Shown: piece after piece, positions 1 through 7,797 of the stretch | Position numbering within the stretch: the stretch's first letter is position 1 | How the letters are laid out: each line of letters begins with the position of its first letter | Assembly (NCBI RefSeq): GCF_020991275.1 | Contig: NZ_JAJLQY010000006.1 | Span: 372,001 to 436,000, forward strand | DNA from: Actinocorallia sp. API 0066 | Lineage (GTDB): Bacteria > Actinomycetota > Actinomycetes > Streptosporangiales > Streptosporangiaceae | Direction: 5' to 3' | DNA: 64,000 bases | Position numbers and translations under genes: made by a program | The notes under the pieces: generated by a model | What the model saw: only the letters and a program-made list of their open reading frames with translations | Database searches by the model: none | What the model was told of the DNA's origin: nothing

Positions 1-1
1 G

Positions 2-382
2 CTGGGGCTCACCGCCTCCGGGGCGCAGCCTCCCGGCGCCACCCGGCGGCTCGCCTTCGACCACGCGCGGATCCTCTCCGACGGGCTGGAGCGCGCGCGC
101 GGCAAGCTGGAGTACACGCCGCTGGCCACCGCCTTCCTGCCCGAGGTCTTCACGATCCCGGAGCTGCGGGCCGTCTACGAGTGCGTGTGGGGCGAGGCCC
201 TGCACGCGGGCAACTTCCACCGGAAGGTGCTGTCGGTGCCCGGGTTCGTCGAAGGGACGGGGCAGACGACGGCGTCGGGAGGACGGCGCGGAGGGCCGCG
301 GGCCCGCCTGTACCGGTCGGGCGACGCGCGGCTTCTCCACCCGGCCCTCCTGCGCCCCGGAACGGAGGACGGCGTCCGGTGA
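2..382 (+). CDS. Nudix-type transcriptional regulator, C-terminal part (cut by window edge)
   Basis: Only the last 126 codons are present; the reading frame is open from base 2 to TGA at 380-382. The visible part matches the winged-helix C-terminus of NrtR-like Nudix proteins: LEYTPLATAFLPEVFTIPEL, then RAVYECVWGEALHAGNFHRK and VLSVPGFVEGTG. In that family a Nudix domain, often catalytically dead, senses ADP-ribose or a related nucleotide and the winged helix binds DNA, typically controlling NAD metabolism. The last 45 residues are arginine- and glycine-rich and look disordered. It points the same way as the following J-domain/VWA/PurA-like genes, so it may be their regulator. An active Nudix hydrolase with the same tail cannot be excluded because the Nudix box lies outside the window. 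Confidence 0.72.
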   Translation: MGLTASGAQPPGATRRLAFDHARILSDGLERARGKLEYTPLATAFLPEVFTIPELRAVYECVWGEALHAGNFHRKVLSVPGFVEGTGQTTASGGRRGGPRARLYRSGDARLLHPALLRPGTEDGVR

Positions 383-533
383 CCCCCTCCCGCCCCCCAG
401 GTGTCCCCTCCTTGTCCCCTTGACAGCTCGGCCTCCTTGTGCCGCCTTCCCTCGGTCTCCCCTACCTCTCCCCTGCTTCTCCCCTTGTGCTTTCCGTCCG
501 CGTGTGCCGCACGTCCCCCTGTGAGGAGGGTCC

Positions 534-1502
534 ATGACCGTCGAAGAGGCGCTCGCCCTGCTGGAGCGCGAGCCCGCCGACGTGTTCGGGAGCGATCCGG
601 CCGAGGCGAGGCGCGTCTACCACCGGCTGGCGCGGGCGCTGCACCCCGACACCGGCGCCGACCCCGACGGGTTCACCCGCCTCACCGAACGGTGGCGGGC
701 CTACCGGGGCACCACGGTCCTGCGGACACGCAAGGCCGCCTACCAGGTGGGGGCGCGGATAGCGCGCGGCGACATCGCCGACCTGTACGCGGTGCGGGCG
801 CCCGACGGGGACGCGCTGCTGAAGATGCCGCGCGACCCGGCCGACGGCGACCTCGTCGAGCGGGAGGCCGTCGCGCTGCGCCAGCTCGCCGCTGACGGCG
901 ACCCGCGGTTCCTGCCGTACGTGCCGCGGCTGATCGAGCGGGTCCGCTACCAGGGGCGCAGCGCGTCGGTCCAGTCGCGCTGCGCGGGCTTCCGCACGCT
1001 CGCCGAGGTGCGCGCGGCCCGGCCGGACGGGCTCGACCCGCGTGACGCGGCGTGGATGTGGCGGCGGCTGCTCGTGGCGCTCGGCTTCGCGCACCGGGCC
1101 GGGGTGCTGCACGGAGCGGTGCTGCCGGAACACGTCATGATCCATCCGGAGGCGCACGGGCTCGTCCTGGTCGGGTGGGGCCAGTCCGTTCCCGGCTGCT
1201 ACGCCGACACCGACCCCAGCGGGCGGGTGCCCCTCCTCGTGGAGGCGCGCGCGTCGTTCTATCCGCCGGAGGTGCCCGCGCGGGAGCGGGCCGTGGAAGC
1301 CACCGACCTGTTCATGGCCACCCGCGTCATGACGTACCTGATGGGCCCGCTCACCCCGGCGCCCCTGCGCGCGTTCGCACGCGGCTGCACCCTCGCCTCG
1401 CCCCGGCGGCGTCCGTCTGACGCGTGGCGCCTACTCGCCGAACTCGACGACCTCCTCGAACGCCTCTACGGGCCGCGCACCTTCCGGCCCTTCGCTCTGT
1501 GA
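534..1502 (+). CDS. J-domain pseudokinase
   Basis: 322 residues; ATG preceded by GAGGAGG. Residues about 1-55 form a J-like domain with the HPD motif near residue 37 and the helix RLTERWRAYRG. A protein-kinase fold follows: a glycine-loop remnant (IARGDIADLYAV) and a lysine strand (ALLKM). The catalytic loop reads HGAVLPEHVMI at about 193-203, where HRDxKPEN is expected, so Asp and Lys are lost. The metal motif DFG is replaced by GWG near 217. Seen directly: both catalytic motifs are broken. Inferred: a binding or scaffold protein that may recruit an Hsp70-type partner. It is followed 36 bp later by a VWA gene and then a PurA-like gene in what looks like one operon. Confidence 0.75.
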   Translation: MTVEEALALLEREPADVFGSDPAEARRVYHRLARALHPDTGADPDGFTRLTERWRAYRGTTVLRTRKAAYQVGARIARGDIADLYAVRAPDGDALLKMPRDPADGDLVEREAVALRQLAADGDPRFLPYVPRLIERVRYQGRSASVQSRCAGFRTLAEVRAARPDGLDPRDAAWMWRRLLVALGFAHRAGVLHGAVLPEHVMIHPEAHGLVLVGWGQSVPGCYADTDPSGRVPLLVEARASFYPPEVPARERAVEATDLFMATRVMTYLMGPLTPAPLRAFARGCTLASPRRRPSDAWRLLAELDDLLERLYGPRTFRPFAL

Positions 1503-1538
1503 CCCCGCCTTAGGACCCCTCGGAAAGGAGCACCCATC

Positions 1539-2504
1539 ATGGGTAGCGGAACCTGGGACACCGGCGTCTACGACGCCGCCGCGAGCTACCGGCGCGCCAC
1601 CGGCGCCAGCGCCTTCGCGCACAGCGACTCCGGCGCCACCCGCGTGCACCCCTCGCTCGACCCGCACGGCGTCGCCGTCCGGGAGAGCCGGGACGGCGAC
1701 GACCACCCCGAGTCGCTCGCGATCGGCGTGCTGTTCGACGTCACCGGCTCGATGCGGAACGTGCCGCGCGGCCTGCAGGCCAAGCTGCCCGAGCTGCTCG
1801 GCCTGCTACTGCGCAAGGGCTACGCCACCGACCCGCAGATCCTCTTCGGCGCCATCGGCGACGCCACCTGCGACCGGGCGCCGCTCCAGGTCGGGCAGTT
1901 CGAGTCCGACAACCGGATGGACGACGACCTCGGCCGCATCCTCCTGGAGGGCGGGGGCGGCGGCCAGATGACCGAGTCCTACGAGCTCGCCCTGTACTTC
2001 ATGGCGCGGCACACCGTCACCGACTGCTGGGAGAAGCGGCGCAAGAGGGGCTACCTCTTCCTCATGGGAGACGAGCTCGCGTACGCGAAGGTGAAGAAGG
2101 ACGAGGTAAGGCGGATCATCGGGGACACGTTGGAGGCCGACATCCCGGTCGCCGACATCGTCGCCGAGCTGCAGGAGAAGTGGCACGTCTACTTCATCAT
2201 CCCGACCGGCACCTTCCACGGCGAGGACCCGAAGCTGCGCGACTTCTGGCGCGGGCTGCTCGGCCAGCACGTCCTCTACCTGGACGACCTCGACGCGGTG
2301 TGCGAGACGGTGGCGCTGACCGTCGGCCTGGCGGAGGAGGCCATCGACCTCGCCGAGGGACTGAACGACCTCGCGGAGGTCGGCTCGGCCGCGGGCCCGT
2401 CGGTGTCGCGGGCGCTGGCCCCGCTCGACAGGGGCGCGGTGGCGCGCTCGGACGTGCCCCTCGTCGTCAGGGACGACGTGCCGAGGGGCACGAGGCGGCT
2501 GTGA
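1539..2504 (+). CDS. VWA (von Willebrand factor A) domain protein
   Basis: 321 residues; ATG with an AAAGGAG ribosome site. After about 60 residues the VWA domain starts with LAIGVLFDVTGSMRNVP; DVTGS at 67-71 replaces the usual DxSxS metal site, and further MIDAS-type residues are in GGQMTESYE and LFLMGDE. The domain ends near residue 250 (VYFIIPTGTFHGEDP), followed by an alanine-rich helical tail. There is no signal peptide, so it is cytoplasmic. Metal-dependent VWA domains bind protein partners; with the upstream pseudokinase it probably forms a complex. Its stop overlaps the next gene's start (GTGA), which implies translational coupling with the PurA-like enzyme. It is not clearly TerY. 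Confidence 0.8.
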   Translation: MGSGTWDTGVYDAAASYRRATGASAFAHSDSGATRVHPSLDPHGVAVRESRDGDDHPESLAIGVLFDVTGSMRNVPRGLQAKLPELLGLLLRKGYATDPQILFGAIGDATCDRAPLQVGQFESDNRMDDDLGRILLEGGGGGQMTESYELALYFMARHTVTDCWEKRRKRGYLFLMGDELAYAKVKKDEVRRIIGDTLEADIPVADIVAELQEKWHVYFIIPTGTFHGEDPKLRDFWRGLLGQHVLYLDDLDAVCETVALTVGLAEEAIDLAEGLNDLAEVGSAAGPSVSRALAPLDRGAVARSDVPLVVRDDVPRGTRRL

Positions 2505-3739
2505 GCCCGCACGTCGTCGTCGTGGACCTCGGGTTCGGCGACGGGGGCAAGGGGACCGTCGTGGACTGGCTGTGCGCCCGTGGGGGCGGGCGCCGGCCGT
2601 TCCACGCGGTCGTCCGCTTCAACGGGGGCGCGCAGGCCGCCCACAACGTCGTGACGCCCGACGGGAGGCACCACACGTTCGCGCAGGTCGGCGCCGGCAC
2701 GTTCACGCCGGGCGTTCGCACCTATCTGTCCCGGTTCGTCATGGTTGATCCGCTGGCGCTGGCGGCCGAGGCCGACCACCTGCGGACGGTCGGCGTGCCG
2801 GACGCGCTCGCCCGCCTGGCCGTCTCCTCCGACGCCCTGCTGACGACGCCCTACCACCGGGCCGCCAACCGCGCGCGTGAACTGGCGCGCGGCGCGGCCC
2901 GCCACGGCTCGTGCGGCATGGGCGTAGGAGAGACCGCCCGCTACGCCCTCGACCACCCCGACGCGCCTCGGGCGGGCGACTGCCTTTCCCCGGCCCGCCT
3001 ACGCCGCTCCCTGACGGCGCTGCGCTCCCGTGTCCTGGACGAGTTCCCCACCGCCGACGCGCCTCCGGTGGACGCCTGCGTGGACGCCTTCACCGCCTTC
3101 GCCTCCGCCGTGGCCGTCGTGGACGAAGCCCGCTTCCTGCCTTACCTCCTCGCGGAGGGCCCCGTGGTCTTCGAGGGCGCTCAGGGCGTCCTGCTTGACG
3201 AACTCCACGGCTTCCACCCCTACACGACCTGGTCCACCACGACGTTCGCCAACGCCCTGGACCTCCTTTCCGGCGCGGAAGCCGTCCGCCTCGCTGTCAC
3301 CCGCACCTACACCACCCGCCACGGGCCCGGCCCCTTCGTCACCGAGGACCCCGCCCTCCACCGCCCCGAACCGCACAACACCGCGGCCACCTGGCAGGGC
3401 GCCTTCCGCGTGGGCCACTTCGACGCCGTCGCCCTCCGCTACGCCCTCCGTGCCTGCGACGGGGCCGACTACCTGGCCCTCACCCACACCGACACCCCAC
3501 CCACCGACCTCTGCACCTCCTACCAGGGATTCACCGCCCTCCCCGTCCACGCCTCCCTCCCCGCCCAGGAACGCCTCACCCACACCCTCCTCACCGAACG
3601 CCCCGTCTACTCAGGCGCCCAAGCCACCCCGGAGGCCATCTCCACAGCACTCGGCCTCCCCTTGGCCCTCACCTCCCACGGCCCCACCCATCTCAACAAA
3701 CACGCCCTCTCCCCCGCCCTCGGCGGCATCCCCGCCTGA
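2501..3739 (+). CDS. Atypical adenylosuccinate synthetase homologue (PurA-like ligase)
   Basis: 412 residues, close to normal PurA length; GTG start overlaps the VWA stop. The P-loop reads GFGDGGKGT (11-19), keeping the catalytic Asp14. The second catalytic site reads GGAQAAHN with His48 kept. VFEGAQGVLLDELHGFHPY and YTTRHGPGPF are clear PurA signatures, as is HFDAVALRYALRACDGADYL. The loop that binds L-aspartate in PurA (TTGRxRRxGW) instead reads TWQGAFRVGH at 297-306, so the key arginines are absent. Inference: it activates a purine nucleotide with GTP like PurA but joins it to something other than aspartate. Context with Nudix-regulator, pseudokinase and VWA genes argues against housekeeping purA. 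The 3' third is strongly C-rich. Confidence 0.8.
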   Translation: MSPHVVVVDLGFGDGGKGTVVDWLCARGGGRRPFHAVVRFNGGAQAAHNVVTPDGRHHTFAQVGAGTFTPGVRTYLSRFVMVDPLALAAEADHLRTVGVPDALARLAVSSDALLTTPYHRAANRARELARGAARHGSCGMGVGETARYALDHPDAPRAGDCLSPARLRRSLTALRSRVLDEFPTADAPPVDACVDAFTAFASAVAVVDEARFLPYLLAEGPVVFEGAQGVLLDELHGFHPYTTWSTTTFANALDLLSGAEAVRLAVTRTYTTRHGPGPFVTEDPALHRPEPHNTAATWQGAFRVGHFDAVALRYALRACDGADYLALTHTDTPPTDLCTSYQGFTALPVHASLPAQERLTHTLLTERPVYSGAQATPEAISTALGLPLALTSHGPTHLNKHALSPALGGIPA

Positions 3740-4025: not shown

Positions 4026-5384
4026 TCAGGGGCGGTGGGCGGTGTAGCGGGCGCGGACGTCGGGTGTGGGGGCGGCGGTGTGGGTGCGGGTGGGGGTGGA
4101 GGTCCACTCGGGGGGGTCTTCGGTGGGGGTGAGGAGCCAGGCGGCCTGGCGGGCGGCGCCCAGGGCGACGTACTCGGCGGGGTCGGGCACGAGCACGGGG
4201 CGGCCGAAGATCGCGGGGGCAAGGTGGCGGACGGCCTTGGCGCGGGCGCCTCCGCCGATGAGGAGGATCCGGGACGGGTCCAGGCCGAGCGCGTCGACGG
4301 CGTCGGCGAGGTGGCACAGGAGTCCCTCGACGGCGGCGCGCGCGAAGTGCGCCGGGGTCGAGTTCGCCAGCCGGAGGCCGTGCAGGGTGCCGGTCGCGTC
4401 CGGGAGGTTCGGGGTGCGCTCGCCCTCCAGGTACGGGATCAGGGTGAGGCCGTCCGCGCCGGGCAGGGCGGAGAGCGCCAGATCGCTCAGCTCCGGCAGC
4501 GGGACGCCGAGCATGGCCGCGGCGGCGTCCAGGACGCGCGCGGCGTTCAGCGTGGCGACCAGGGGCAGGTAGCGGCCCGTGGCGTCGGCGAAGCCCGCGA
4601 CCTGGCCCGTCACGTCCGCGCTCGGCCTGCTCGCGACGGCGAACGCGGTGCCGGACGTGCCGACGGACACCACGACGTCGCCGGGCCGTCCGCCCACGCC
4701 GAGCATCGCCGCCATGTTGTCGCCCGTGCCGGGCGCCACCGCGACGCCGTTCCACGCGCCCGCCCGCGCGCGCGGCGCGAGCACCTCGGGCAGGCGGGGC
4801 ACCGCGCCGAAGGCGTCGGCGAGGAGGTCGGTCCGGTACTCGCCGGACGCGGGCGCGTAGTAGCCGGTGCCGGAGGCGTCGCCCCTGTCGGTGACGAGGG
4901 AGCCCGTCATGCGCGACGTAAGCCAGTCGTGCGGTAGGCAGACGGCTTCGGTGCGCGCCGCGTTCTCCGGCTCGTTGCGGGCCAGCCAGCGCAGCTTGGT
5001 GACGGTGAAGGAGGCGACGGGCACGCTGCCGACGGCCTCCGCCCAGAAGGCGGCGCCCTTCTCCGCGACGAGGTCGGCGGCGTCGGGGGCCGAGCGCGTG
5101 TCGTTCCACAGGAGGGCGTCGCGCACGACCGCGCCGGAGCCGTCCAGGCAGACCATGCCGTGCTGCTGCGCGCCGACGGACAGGGCGGCCACGTCGTCGA
5201 GGCCGCCCGCGCGCGCGACGGCCGTCTCCAGGGCGTGCCACCAGGCTCGCGGCGCCACCTCGGTGCCGGGCGGGTGCGGTGCGGAGCCCTCGCGGACGAG
5301 GGCTCCGGTCTCGGCGTCCACCACGACGACCTTGCAGCTCTGTGTGGAGGAGTCGACGCCCGCGACGAGGCGGGGAGCGGTCAT
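4026..5384 (-). CDS. xylB: Xylulokinase
   Basis: 452 residues; phosphorylates D-xylulose to xylulose-5-phosphate with ATP. FGGY-family features in order: phosphate-binding [17 protein letters not shown] near the N-terminus, the [15 protein letters not shown] segment around 150, [12 protein letters not shown] near 240 and the ATP-site [15 protein letters not shown] near 390. Slightly shorter than the usual 480 or so. The start overlaps the xylA stop by 4 bases (ATGA), so the two are coupled. The 3' end and C-terminal tail are Pro/Thr-rich with C-rich codons. The operon is presumably repressed by the divergent ROK regulator through the operator at 6594-6616. Confidence 0.93.
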
Positions 5385-6526
5385 CCGCGGACCCCGAGGA
5401 GGAACTCGACGGCGAGCTGGTTCAGCCGGGTGTAAGCGCTGTCGCGCTGGGCGGCGGCCTCAGGGTCGAAGTCCTCGGCGACGAGGTCGGCCACCGACTC
5501 GCCTTCGGCCAGCGCGGGCACGGCCAAGTCGGCGACGCGGCTGGCGGCGAGCGCCTCGGCGACCTCGGGGTCGGCGCGGAAAGCCGCCGCCTTCTCCTTG
5601 AGGATCAGGTAGGTGCGCATGTTGGCGGCGGCGGAGGGCCACACGTCCATGTCGGTGCGCAGCGGCTTGTAGTCGAAGTGCCGGGGGCCCGCGTAGCCGC
5701 CGGACTCAAGGAGGTCCACGAGGAAGAAGGCGCCCTTCAGGTCGCCGTGGCCGAAGATGAGGTCCTGGTCGTAGCGGGGCCCGTGCTGGCCGTTCAGGTC
5801 GATGTGGAAGAGCTTGCCGTGCCACAGGGCCTGGGCGACGCCGTGCACGAAGTTCAGGCCCGCCATCTGCTCGTGGCCGACCTCGGGGTTGAGGCCGACG
5901 AGTTCGGGGTGCTCCAGGGAGTTGATGAAGGCGAGGGCGTGGCCGATGGTCGGAAGCAGGATGTCGCCGCGCGGCTCGTTGGGCTTGGGCTCGATGGCGA
6001 ACCGCAGGTCGTAGCCCTTGTCGAGGACGTAGGAGGTGAGGATGTCGAACGCCTCCTTGAACCGGTCGAGGGCGACCCTGACGTCCTTGGCCGCGTCCGA
6101 CTCGGCGCCCTCCCGGCCGCCCCAGCACACGTAGGTGGTGGCGCCCAGCTCGGCCGCGAGGTCGATGTTCCGGATGACCTTGCGCAGCGCGTAGCGGCGG
6201 ACGTCCCTGTCGTTGGCGGTGAACGCGCCGTCCTTGAAGACGGGGTGGGTGAACAGGTTGGTCGTCGCCATGGGGACCTTCAGGCCCGTCTCGGCCAAGG
6301 CGCCCCGGAACCTCTCGATCGCCTTGGCGCGGTCCTTCTCGACGGCGAGGAGGTCGTCGTCGTGGAAGGTGACGCCGTAGGCGCCCAGCTCGGCCAGCCG
6401 GTGGACGCTCTCGACGGGGTCGAGGGGGGCGCGGGTGGCGTCGCCGAACGGGTCGCGGGCCTCCCAGCCGACGGTCCACAGGCCGAACGTGAACTTGTCT
6501 TCCGGCCTCGGGGTGTAGGCGGTCAC
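5381..6526 (-). CDS. xylA: Xylose isomerase
   Basis: 381 residues, the short class I size typical of actinomycetes. Converts D-xylose to D-xylulose (also glucose to fructose). The catalytic His/Asp pair is in [10 protein letters not shown]; metal ligands are visible in [45 protein letters not shown] and [10 protein letters not shown]. Cytoplasmic. First gene of xylAB and divergent from xylR across a 122-bp intergenic region holding an inverted-repeat operator. No xylose transporter is in view. Confidence 0.96.
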
Positions 6527-6593
6527 GCGGGTGCTCCTCTGCGCAGGGTTCTTGATCGGGGGGTGGGCCTGGTGTTCATGGAACTTCCGGGTA

Positions 6594-6616
6594 TTTAGTC
6601 CATATTATGAACTTAA
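6594..6616. promoter_or_regulatory. Inverted-repeat operator between xylA and xylR
   Basis: An AT-rich 23-bp interrupted palindrome with 11-bp arms, TTTAGTCCATA and TATGAACTTAA, around a central T at 6605, with two mismatches between arms. It is strikingly AT-rich against the genome background and lies between the divergent xylA and xylR starts. ROK-family xylose repressors bind such sites. It covers the alternative upstream ATG of xylR at 6607, which argues for translation from 6649. Confidence 0.75.
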
Positions 6617-6648
6617 TAAGACCCGATGGAGGTGACATCGTCAAGTCC

Positions 6649-7797
6649 ATGCACGCGAACTCCTCGCAGGCGCCGGTCCGGCACGGCGCGATGCGCGCGC
6701 AGAACCTCGGGCTCGTGCTCGGCGAGGTCGCCAGGGGCGGGCCGCTGACGCGCGCCGCCCTCGCCGAGCTGACCGGCCTGACCAAGACCACGGTCTCCCG
6801 GCTCGTCGCCGACCTGCTCGACGCGGGCCTGGTCGCCGAGGCACCGGCCGTCCCGGACGGCGAGCGCGGCCGTCCGGGCGTCGAGATCAGCCTCAGCGGC
6901 GACCGGGTGGCCGCGCTGGGCCTGGAGGTCAACGTGGCCTATCTGGCGGCCTGTGTGGTCGATCTGACGCGCCGGGTGCGGGTCCGGCGGGTGCTGCGCC
7001 GCGACAACCGCGCCGACCGCCCCGCCGCCGTCCTGGCGGCGCTGGCGGCCCTCGGCGACGCCGCGGTGCGCGAGGTGCCGGGGCTGCGGGTCGCGGGAAC
7101 GGTCCTGGCGATCCCGGGGCCGGTCGGCGGGGGCCGGGTGCACAACGCGCCGAACCTGGGCTGGCGCGACGTGGACGTGCCCGCCCTGCTGGGCCGCCCG
7201 GTGACGGTCGAGAACGAGGCGAACCTCGCGGCCCTGGGCGAGCTGGAGTTCGGCGCGGCGCCCCGCGACTTCCTGTACGTCTCGGGCGAGACGGGCGTGG
7301 GCGCGGGCCTGGTCAGCGGCGGCGCGCTCTTCCGCGGCGCGTCCGGGATGGCGGGGGAGCTCGGCCACGTGGCGGTCGCCTCCGGCGCGGAGGCCGGGGG
7401 ACGCGCCTGCCGGTGCGGGGCGACGGGCTGCCTTGAGGTGTTCGCGGGCAAGGAGGCACTCCCCTCGCCTGAAGCGCTCGCCTCCGGTGATCCCGCTGCG
7501 CTGGACGCCTGCGCGCGCGCTGGACGGGCCCTGGGGATAGCGCTGTCCTCGGCGGTGAACCTCCTGGACCCGGGGACGATCGTGCTGGGCGGGTGCTACA
7601 CGCCGCTGTTCCGGTGGCTCTCCCCTCCGCTGTGCGAGGTGCTCGCCGAACGGCTGGCGACGCTCCGTCCCGATCTGCCCGTGCTCGTCCCGTCGGCGAC
7701 GGGGCCGGACGCGGCGGTGCTGGGCGCGGCGGGCCAGGTGTTGCAGCGGGTCATCGCAGATCCTGCCGCTTATGCCGAGAAAACAACGGATATGTGA
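6649..7797 (+). CDS. xylR: ROK-family transcriptional repressor of xylose genes
   Basis: 382 residues from the ATG at 6649, preceded by GGAGGTGA at 6628-6635; an in-frame ATG at 6607 lies inside the operator and lacks a ribosome site. An N-terminal winged helix (LTRAALAELTGLTKTTVSRL) is followed by the ROK sugar-kinase-like domain: AIPGPVGGG, VENEANLAALGE, GETGVGAGLV, and the zinc-cluster region GELGHVAVASGAEAGGRACRCGATGCLEVFAG. In this family the sugar or sugar phosphate releases the repressor from DNA. Position opposite xylAB makes a xylose repressor role likely. A perfect CGGTTC/GAACCG hairpin lies just after the stop. Confidence 0.88.
   Translation: MHANSSQAPVRHGAMRAQNLGLVLGEVARGGPLTRAALAELTGLTKTTVSRLVADLLDAGLVAEAPAVPDGERGRPGVEISLSGDRVAALGLEVNVAYLAACVVDLTRRVRVRRVLRRDNRADRPAAVLAALAALGDAAVREVPGLRVAGTVLAIPGPVGGGRVHNAPNLGWRDVDVPALLGRPVTVENEANLAALGELEFGAAPRDFLYVSGETGVGAGLVSGGALFRGASGMAGELGHVAVASGAEAGGRACRCGATGCLEVFAGKEALPSPEALASGDPAALDACARAGRALGIALSSAVNLLDPGTIVLGGCYTPLFRWLSPPLCEVLAERLATLRPDLPVLVPSATGPDAAVLGAAGQVLQRVIADPAAYAEKTTDM

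Follow-up and report, generated by a model that had tools for sequence, protein, structure and literature searches.

What is a second relative of adenylosuccinate synthetase (PurA) doing in a bacterial genome, in one gene cluster with a Nudix-type regulator, a degenerate kinase and a von Willebrand factor A (VWA) protein? The question arises at the start of a 64,000-nt stretch of Actinocorallia sp. API 0066 (contig NZ_JAJLQY010000006.1; contig C41 of the 7.0 Mb genome in our numbering), hereafter the window, where four same-strand genes follow one another in the order NUD-JPK-VWA-PURA. A sequence-only reading of the window had described four adjacent genes on one strand, the last two overlapping by GTGA; both points hold, the first gene having been seen there only as its C-terminal half. 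The analysis presented here indicates that these genes form a conserved operon whose ligase, PURA, has a catalytic centre of the PurA kind and a rebuilt substrate site, and it points to a role in the metabolism of nicotinamide adenine dinucleotide (NAD) and ADP-ribose. It also goes beyond that reading in two respects: the module exists in a phage-borne form linked to NAD salvage, and it occurs outside actinomycetes, on plasmids of Pseudomonadota. The features of the cassette are listed below (handles in L, G and C are ours, for loci, genomes and contigs); "order" refers throughout to the taxonomic order of the organism.

G000:C41:371530-371563: double operator, upstream of the window and of NUD
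L003:9597-10382, plus strand: full NUD gene, GTG start, 261 amino acids, starting 404 bases upstream of the window
1..382, plus strand: 3' part of NUD, an NrtR-type regulator with Nudix domain and winged helix; the last 126 codons fall at 2-382
534..1502, plus strand: JPK, 322 amino acids, with a J domain and a degenerate protein-kinase fold
642..650, plus strand: HPD motif of the J domain, JPK residues 37-39; HPD in 45 of 46 rows of the order, one gap
1110..1118, plus strand: HGA replacing the kinase HRD, JPK residues 193-195; all 46 rows of the order have Ala at the HRD Asp
1539..2504, plus strand: VWA, VWA protein, 321 amino acids; phrog_2971
1737..1751, plus strand: D-V-T-G-S motif of the metal-ion-dependent adhesion site (MIDAS), VWA residues 67-71
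2501..3739, plus strand: PURA, divergent adenylosuccinate-synthetase-like ligase, 412 amino acids; its GTG start shares four bases, GTGA, with the VWA stop
2537..2554, plus strand: G-D-G-G-K-G, P-loop-like motif; D14 is Asp13 of E. coli PurA, followed by Lys17
2642..2644, plus strand: PURA His48, equivalent to His41 of E. coli
3314..3325, plus strand: T-R-H-G family signature; where E. coli PurA has V273, His stands in 55/55 rows of the order and 153/153 viral rows
3392..3409, plus strand: W-Q-G-A-F-R, where E. coli PurA has its aspartate-binding loop, T-T-G-R-R-R-R

A divergent branch of the PurA family

PURA shares the fold family of PurA (PF00709, E 1.9e-58; predicted model with a predicted local distance difference test score, pLDDT, of 79) and scores far under the PurA equivalog cut-offs. 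The sequence-only reading had staked its interpretation on this gene not being the only purA of the genome, and it is not: a separate canonical PurA is encoded in the same genome, and 33 of 33 other cassette genomes tested, out of 56, carry a canonical PurA of more than 600 bits alongside PURA, which rules out PURA as the sole PurA. Three of these 33 genomes show three matches to PF00709, in two cases because the cassette gene is split in two pieces (G028, G117) and in one because of a third protein (G063). The latter (G063:C65:25710-26825), with 300 bits, lies between the canonical PurA (about 606) and the PURA-like protein (195) of that genome.

In a tree of 38 sequences, the 22 PURA-like proteins form one clade (support 100/99) apart from 12 PurA and four PurZ, the latter likewise one clade (100/99); because of long branches, of which the tree program warns, the branching among the three groups is uncertain at depth. 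Residues were compared, in E. coli numbering, over 55 of the 57 PURA rows of the order (L085 and L068 dropped) and 153 of 156 viral rows (PURA shorter than 300 amino acids dropped). All 55 rows of the order keep Asp13, Lys16, His41, Gln224, Thr239 and Asp333, which are thus common to PURA and PurA, and all 55 have Gln for N38, Cys for T129, Met for R131, Trp for S240, His for V273, Trp for T300, Gln for T301, Phe for R305 and His for K331, with R303 absent. The viral rows repeat this pattern: Asp13 in 152 (one gap), Lys16 in 152, His41 and Gln224 in 153 each, Asp333 in 145, His at V273 in 153 and Gln at T301 in 150, with R303 absent from all 153 and never an Arg at 305. Over all rows, PURA departs from PurA mostly by N38Q, T129C/V, V273H, T300W/F/Y, T301Q, absence of R303 and a hydrophobic residue at 305; a Vibrio phage PURA in the alignment of diverse rows retains N38 and T129. 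Judged by the residues that mark PurA, Asp13, Lys16 and His41 are in place and the R303/R305 aspartate loop is missing. In PurA, Asp13, Lys16 and His41 count as catalytic, and R305 and T300/T301 are assigned to the aspartate site.

Phages with Z genomes carry relatives of PurA as well, PurZ and PurZ0, which like PURA lack R303 at its place. In the part of PMC12884076 used here, Ser occupies the Asp13 position in 100% of 147 phage PurZ, and viral PurA homologues are sorted into PurA and PurZ groups, with others left unnamed in that section. Our four PurZ controls, labelled from Ser13, annotation and neighbours, all have Ser for Asp13 and keep N38, T129, V273, T300 and R305, whereas the PURA-like proteins are the opposite at Asp13, R305, N38, T129 and V273 in nearly every row. 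Membership of PURA in PurZ is thus ruled out by Asp at position 13 (55/55 in the order; 152/153 viral, one gap) and by the separate clade. PMC8342488 reports that R303 contacts O2' of inosine monophosphate as well as aspartate, and that the base pocket of PurZ includes N49, T132, Q190 and V241, the last near C2'; by alignment, these four may be taken as columns N38, T129, Q224 and V273. Phage copies of the PURA-like gene are labelled '2-aminooxy adenylosuccinate synthetase' in phrog_1211 and in Bixzunavirus records; two such 'PurZ-like' genes, of HyRo and Tonenili, are PurZ neither by residue nor by tree.

From the residue pattern in the order, the viral rows and the PurZ controls, it follows that PURA retains the catalytic centre of PurA, the aspartate loop and part of the sugar and base pocket having been replaced. 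Because the V273/T301/R303/R305 replacement is common to Actinomycetota, Pseudomonadota and phages, it argues for one new specificity and not for decay. What PURA couples to a purine nucleotide is probably not aspartate, and the idea of a nucleotide-modifying system, as first proposed, is strengthened by an intact catalytic core next to rebuilt substrate loops.

A conserved operon on chromosomes and plasmids

Whether the four genes belong together was asked in two partly overlapping sets of loci. Of the 121 genomes of the order, 57 encode VWA, Actinocorallia sp. API 0066 included, and so do 3 of 20 separately drawn relatives, among them both genomes of the same genus; judged by VWA, the closest named relative is Actinocorallia populi (81% identity). 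In 47 of these 57 loci the complete set is present side by side, with gene order and strand unchanged, a count that includes L085, with fragmentary copies, and L052. The second set comprises 83 loci, three of them from a phylum search and the remaining 80 from records that name their organism (Actinomadura, Streptosporangium, Micromonospora, Actinoplanes, Catellatospora, Streptomyces, Actinacidiphila and others). Matches to all four genes are present in 80 of the 83; in L092 and in L109 one gene is missing where the sequence is cut, and L127 has no JPK. The co-occurrence on which the first reading depended is thus borne out, chance adjacency is ruled out by the 47/57 and 80/83 counts, and the genes are best described as a conserved operon. 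In 44 loci (those without all four genes and L085, L068, L086, L073 and L035 dropped), the four families show correlated pairwise protein distances, with r 0.85-0.92 and 0 of 999 permutations reaching such values. This is what joint inheritance would predict, and it supports linkage, much of it possibly vertical, and is not proof of interaction.

More widely, 518 stretches in a collection of species genomes encode a VWA relative, and a phylum search found one in 4 of 396 genomes, a figure that may be an undercount with five candidates scored per genome. Plasmid records show the gene set with NUD downstream in Rhodococcus and Tsukamurella and with NUD divergent in Allorhizobium, Acetobacter and Rhizobium; among the same records, JPK, VWA and PURA are present in Variovorax, with NUD not found, and NUD, JPK and VWA in Rhodovulum, with PURA not found. 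In the flanks of the 57 loci, no family besides the four recurs in more than 17, one antisense family of open reading frames being a presumed artefact; these families come unannotated from a noisy, simple gene caller and carry the count only. Individual loci also deviate: L052 (G083) has about 1.9 kb between JPK and VWA, which suggests an inserted gene in an otherwise intact cassette, L085 (G071) is decayed, its four genes matching as fragments only with the operator intact, and L073 and L086 are cut by contig ends.

NUD, a putative local auto-repressor

NUD matches the Pfam families NUDIX (E 2.7e-19) and NrtR_WHD (2.4e-12), both above the curated cut-off, and the NCBIfam equivalog NF050029 below its cut-off; the Nudix box is intact in 31 of 55 rows. 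Its best match among solved structures is 3gz5/3gz6 (E 4e-30), deposited as 'MutT/nudix family protein', which we take to be the NrtR of Shewanella. The DNA upstream of NUD holds two palindromes, CTCA-N4-GAG, at fixed spacing, preceded by a promoter-like pair, TGGACA-17-TATGTT, noted by eye. Across 134 upstream regions, some genomes being counted twice since the two locus sets overlap, 97 match all 14 fixed letters of this double operator, 29 have one mismatch and eight have more; at most one mismatch in 126 of 134 compares with none below two in 20 shuffles per region. The genome of Actinocorallia sp. API 0066 has one such site, before NUD, both by the exact pattern and by a longer pattern with up to three mismatches; the exact pattern is over-tight (W at two places), and looser sites in this genome may be missed. 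Among 21 genomes that pattern matches this one alone, though three others, all close relatives (G516, the record of L093, G517 and G518), carry VWA; these three have the operator with 0 of 14 mismatches once both W places are freed.

Nudix domain, winged helix and a conserved palindromic operator at its own promoter are thus all present, as in NrtR, and we infer that NUD is a local auto-repressor. Its operator differs from the mycobacterial and streptococcal NrtR operators given in the part of PMC6800001 used here, and in cells NUD precedes JPK-VWA-PURA instead of the NAD genes that NrtR regulators accompany. The earlier suggestion of a Nudix regulator that senses ADP-ribose-type nucleotides is strengthened by a likeness to NrtR, an operator of its own and a single genomic site; the ligand is a prediction. 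One cassette (L165) adjoins a second, divergent NUD-like gene of 48% identity (L165:2268-2930, minus strand).

The J-domain pseudokinase and the VWA protein

The family profile of JPK matches J-domain structures over its first part (3lz8, 6.5e-5) and kinases over the rest (casein kinase II, 2.3e-6; PknE, 1.4e-5), the single-sequence Pfam match to DnaJ being below the curated cut-off. As described from the sequence alone, HRD and DFG have been lost, HGA and VGW standing in their place. Among 46 of the 48 rows of the order (L085 and L035 dropped), the HRD Asp is always Ala, with the beta3 Lys and helix-C Glu kept; four plasmid rows have Ala or Gly at this Asp, with HPD in three and HTD in one, and two of them, from Pseudomonadota, also lack the beta3 Lys. 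JPK is thus a pseudokinase in all 50 cellular rows aligned. Viral JPK of less than 250 amino acids was dropped, at the cost of no locus; the 85 viral rows used have the HRD Asp in seven and the beta3 Lys in 44, and keep the HPD residues in 74-75. Since the HPD residues persist while those of the kinase decay, the J motif is the better-kept function of viral JPK.

VWA has no sequence match in Pfam, NCBIfam or the PDB, and its predicted model, with a mean pLDDT of only 68.8, matches integrin I and VWA domains (Foldseek probability 1.00). The metal site said to be kept is indeed present: the D-x-T-x-S motif shows no variation in 18 cellular rows and hardly any in 13 diverse rows. The further proposal that the pair of J-pseudokinase and VWA forms a scaffold around the ligase is plausible, the better keeping of the viral HPD than of the kinase residues speaking in its favour. 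In the Mycobacterium phage Shifa, the VWA gene (L224:301-2085) has an in-frame insert of 254 residues directly before the G-D-E motif, with intein-like ends (Cys start, Asn-Cys end), which is absent in HyRo.

Phage-borne forms and the link to NAD metabolism

Phage records contain VWA in 206 cases and relatives of PURA in 222, some ordinary PurA and PurZ included, and three IMG/VR scans for VWA confirmed 500, 479 and 167 stretches, of which the best 80 each were kept. Together with five phage records these give, after de-duplication, 160 distinct viral VWA loci, with PURA in 156 and a JPK-like gene in 85 (77 and 58 among the first 80 loci). Bixzunavirus genomes have the order kinase-VWA-PURA, HyRo with one small gene between VWA and PURA; in those Rhizobium and Vibrio phages that were examined the order is VWA-PURA, and no JPK was found. 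Several families, each with one example scanned, accompany the viral genes: one without a Pfam match lies directly upstream of VWA in 24 of the 160 loci (e.g., L340:7158-7904) and may be an extra component, a family with an RlaP-like example occurs in nine (e.g., L373:1986-3002), and a TROVE (Ro60-like) gene lies near VWA-PURA in five (e.g., L430:9803-11404).

Of the 160 viral loci, 24 have a gene for NAMPT, NMNAT/Nudix or NrtR no more than 8 kb away and in the same direction. The orders seen are NrtR-NAMPT-VWA-PURA-JPK, NrtR-VWA-NMNAT-NAMPT-PURA-JPK, NMNAT-VWA-PURA-NAMPT, NMNAT-NAMPT-VWA-PURA and NrtR-NMNAT-NAMPT-JPK-VWA-PURA, named from single examples by Pfam (NAMPT_N/NAPRTase, CTP_transf_like with NUDIX, NrtR_WHD), the NMNAT part of L239 being uncalled. 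A search with PF04095 over the complete viral records behind 71 of the 160 loci (hand-picked contigs of at least 100 kb) found NAMPT in 24 (8/39 and 16/32). In 12 of these 24 its distance from VWA is at most 8 kb, where uniform placement predicts 1.6 (P 5e-9, a value that ignores relatedness; between a near locus and the closest other one, the PURA proteins share 40-48% identity, or 70% in one pair); in the other 12 it is more than 14 kb along the record as given. NADAR occurs in the flank of eight of the 160 viral loci and one of 144 cellular loci. Because of the position of NAMPT in phages and the NrtR type of the regulator, the module points to NAD/ADP-ribose metabolism or to an NAD-centred conflict.

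Proposed mechanism and the points against it

The best overall explanation combines an NAD-responsive repressor, a ligase of altered specificity and a co-chaperone pair with a role in NAD/ADP-ribose metabolism, and we give it a probability of about 0.5. Breakdown of NAD would release ADP-ribose or a relative, and NUD, sensing a nucleotide derived from NAD or ADP-ribose, would leave the double operator, so that JPK, VWA and PURA are made. A nucleoside triphosphate would be used by PURA to phosphorylate the 6-oxo group of a purine nucleotide, an amine then displacing the phosphate; with its rebuilt aspartate loop and ribose/base pocket, PURA may act with a different amine and on a different purine nucleotide. 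If the amine is not aspartate, a lyase would not be needed. The J domain of JPK could recruit Hsp70 (DnaK) to the ligase or its target, VWA could bind a peptide or the ligase, and the two would act as a co-chaperone pair. In bacteria and large phages alike, the module would serve NAD/ADP-ribose metabolism, stress or conflict centred on NAD being the most likely setting.

Several observations weigh against this explanation. Of the 160 viral loci, 75 yielded no JPK, and eight of the 57 loci of the order (L077-L084) lack it and read NUD-VWA-PURA; the close relative G518 (L463, G518:C454) has operator, NUD and VWA, with no JPK and a mere remnant of PURA. NAD genes flank a minority of the viral loci (24/160), NAMPT was found near the cassette in 0 of 144 cellular loci, and the NAD link in cells is thus that of the regulator, whose family can sense other ligands, as AraR illustrates for L-arabinose utilization (PMC4666351, in the part used). 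The test of NAMPT position was chosen after NAMPT had been seen in five of the first 80 loci, and the rate found here (24/71, 34%) equals the 33% of jumbo phages published with NAMPT in the consulted part of PMC9503650, position alone being enriched. What still points to NAD is, in cells, the family of the regulator and, in some phages, the presence of salvage genes.

Alternative explanations and known systems

A cellular host defence deserves first consideration: NUD would be derepressed by ADP-ribose when a phage depletes NAD, PURA would make a signal or toxic nucleotide, and the phage copies would be captured or decoys. The NrtR-type regulator, the patchy presence (57/121 genomes of the order), the copies on plasmids and phages and the resemblance to predicted systems built on ADP-ribosylglycohydrolase (ARG), which share the theme of Nudix regulator and vWA chaperone (PMC9503650, in part), all suit this account. 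It is nevertheless unlikely, as the count of at most 17/57 for any additional, unannotated family leaves no constant effector in sight, and a search with PADLOC matched neither NUD (window part) nor VWA nor PURA, with JPK matching kinase-containing families only (best MkoA, E 3e-10 over 210 residues). A known PADLOC system is rejected on the same result.

The ARG-centred comparison can be taken further. The passages of PMC9503650 used here predict conflict systems in which a Nudix-type regulator and a vWA protein share a neighbourhood, as in the cassette; unlike those systems, the four cassette genes include no ADP-ribosylglycohydrolase or phosphatase, and terms for a PurA-like protein or a J domain were not found in that text. 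Identity with the ARG-centred gene set is thus rejected, the PurA-like ligase and the J-pseudokinase making the difference. Phage NAD salvage (NadV/NAMPT, NadM) and NARP1 share NAMPT and NMNAT/Nudix genes with some phage cassettes, where these genes adjoin VWA and PURA or separate them; for those pathways, the portions of PMC9503650 and PMC12774641 used here mention neither a VWA protein nor a J-pseudokinase or PurA-like component. No description of the four-gene set was found in the open-access literature covered, which takes in few subscription journals and no preprints.

Hypermodification of DNA or of the nucleotide pool is rated lower still: PURA would modify purine bases as PurZ does in 2-aminoadenine phages, and bacterial copies would be domesticated from phages. 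VWA in the 206 phage records and hundreds of IMG/VR stretches, the PurZ-like label of PHROG 1211, which PURA matches, and the alignment column lacking R303 in PurZ and PURA-like proteins alike would be expected on this account. Set against them are the catalytic Asp13 of PURA-like proteins, which is Ser in PurZ (4/4; 100% of 147 in the part of PMC12884076 cited), a tree position apart from PurZ, no Arg at 305, and conservation with a dedicated regulator in bacterial genomes.

Less probable again is a more specific conjecture in which PURA is a third branch of adenylosuccinate synthetases that aminates, with a non-aspartate amine, a (deoxy)inosine-type or NAD-derived nucleotide; phages equipped with NAD salvage would so disarm immunity that depletes NAD on an inosine signal, and bacteria would keep the module under an NAD-sensing repressor with a VWA/J-pseudokinase pair linked to Hsp70. 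Loss of R303, the 2'-OH contact in PurA that is also lost in PurZ, would fit a deoxynucleotide substrate. In the Kongming system, deoxyinosine triphosphate (dITP) switches on an NADase, according to the part of PMC12774641 used here. If the conjecture were true, PURA would remove inosine-type alarm nucleotides such as the dITP of Kongming.

Least likely is an ordinary purine-salvage paralogue that still makes adenylosuccinate under stress control, since clear PurA homology (PF00709, E 1.9e-58) and an intact catalytic core are outweighed by an aspartate loop replaced in every row (55/55 in the order; 153/153 viral rows without R303 and with no Arg at 305), a canonical PurA already present in 33/33 genomes tested, and a gene set that includes no lyase gene.

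Chromosomal surroundings

Beside the cassette, window positions 4026-7797 hold, by eye, a xylulokinase, a xylose isomerase on the minus strand and a ROK-type regulator on the plus strand, that is, an ordinary xylose locus.

Significance

On the explanation by an NAD-responsive repressor, a re-specified ligase and a co-chaperone pair, the cassette may be placed among NAD-centred modules, as a variant that brings in a new branch of ligase. An enzyme family that currently carries the label adenylosuccinate synthetase very probably has another function, and the PurZ-like labels of Bixzunavirus genes, of which two were aligned, are corrected. The module joins NrtR sensing, an Hsp70-linked VWA protein and purine-ligase chemistry, for which no earlier joining was found in the literature covered, and these three themes would meet in it on both sides of the contest between phage and host over NAD.

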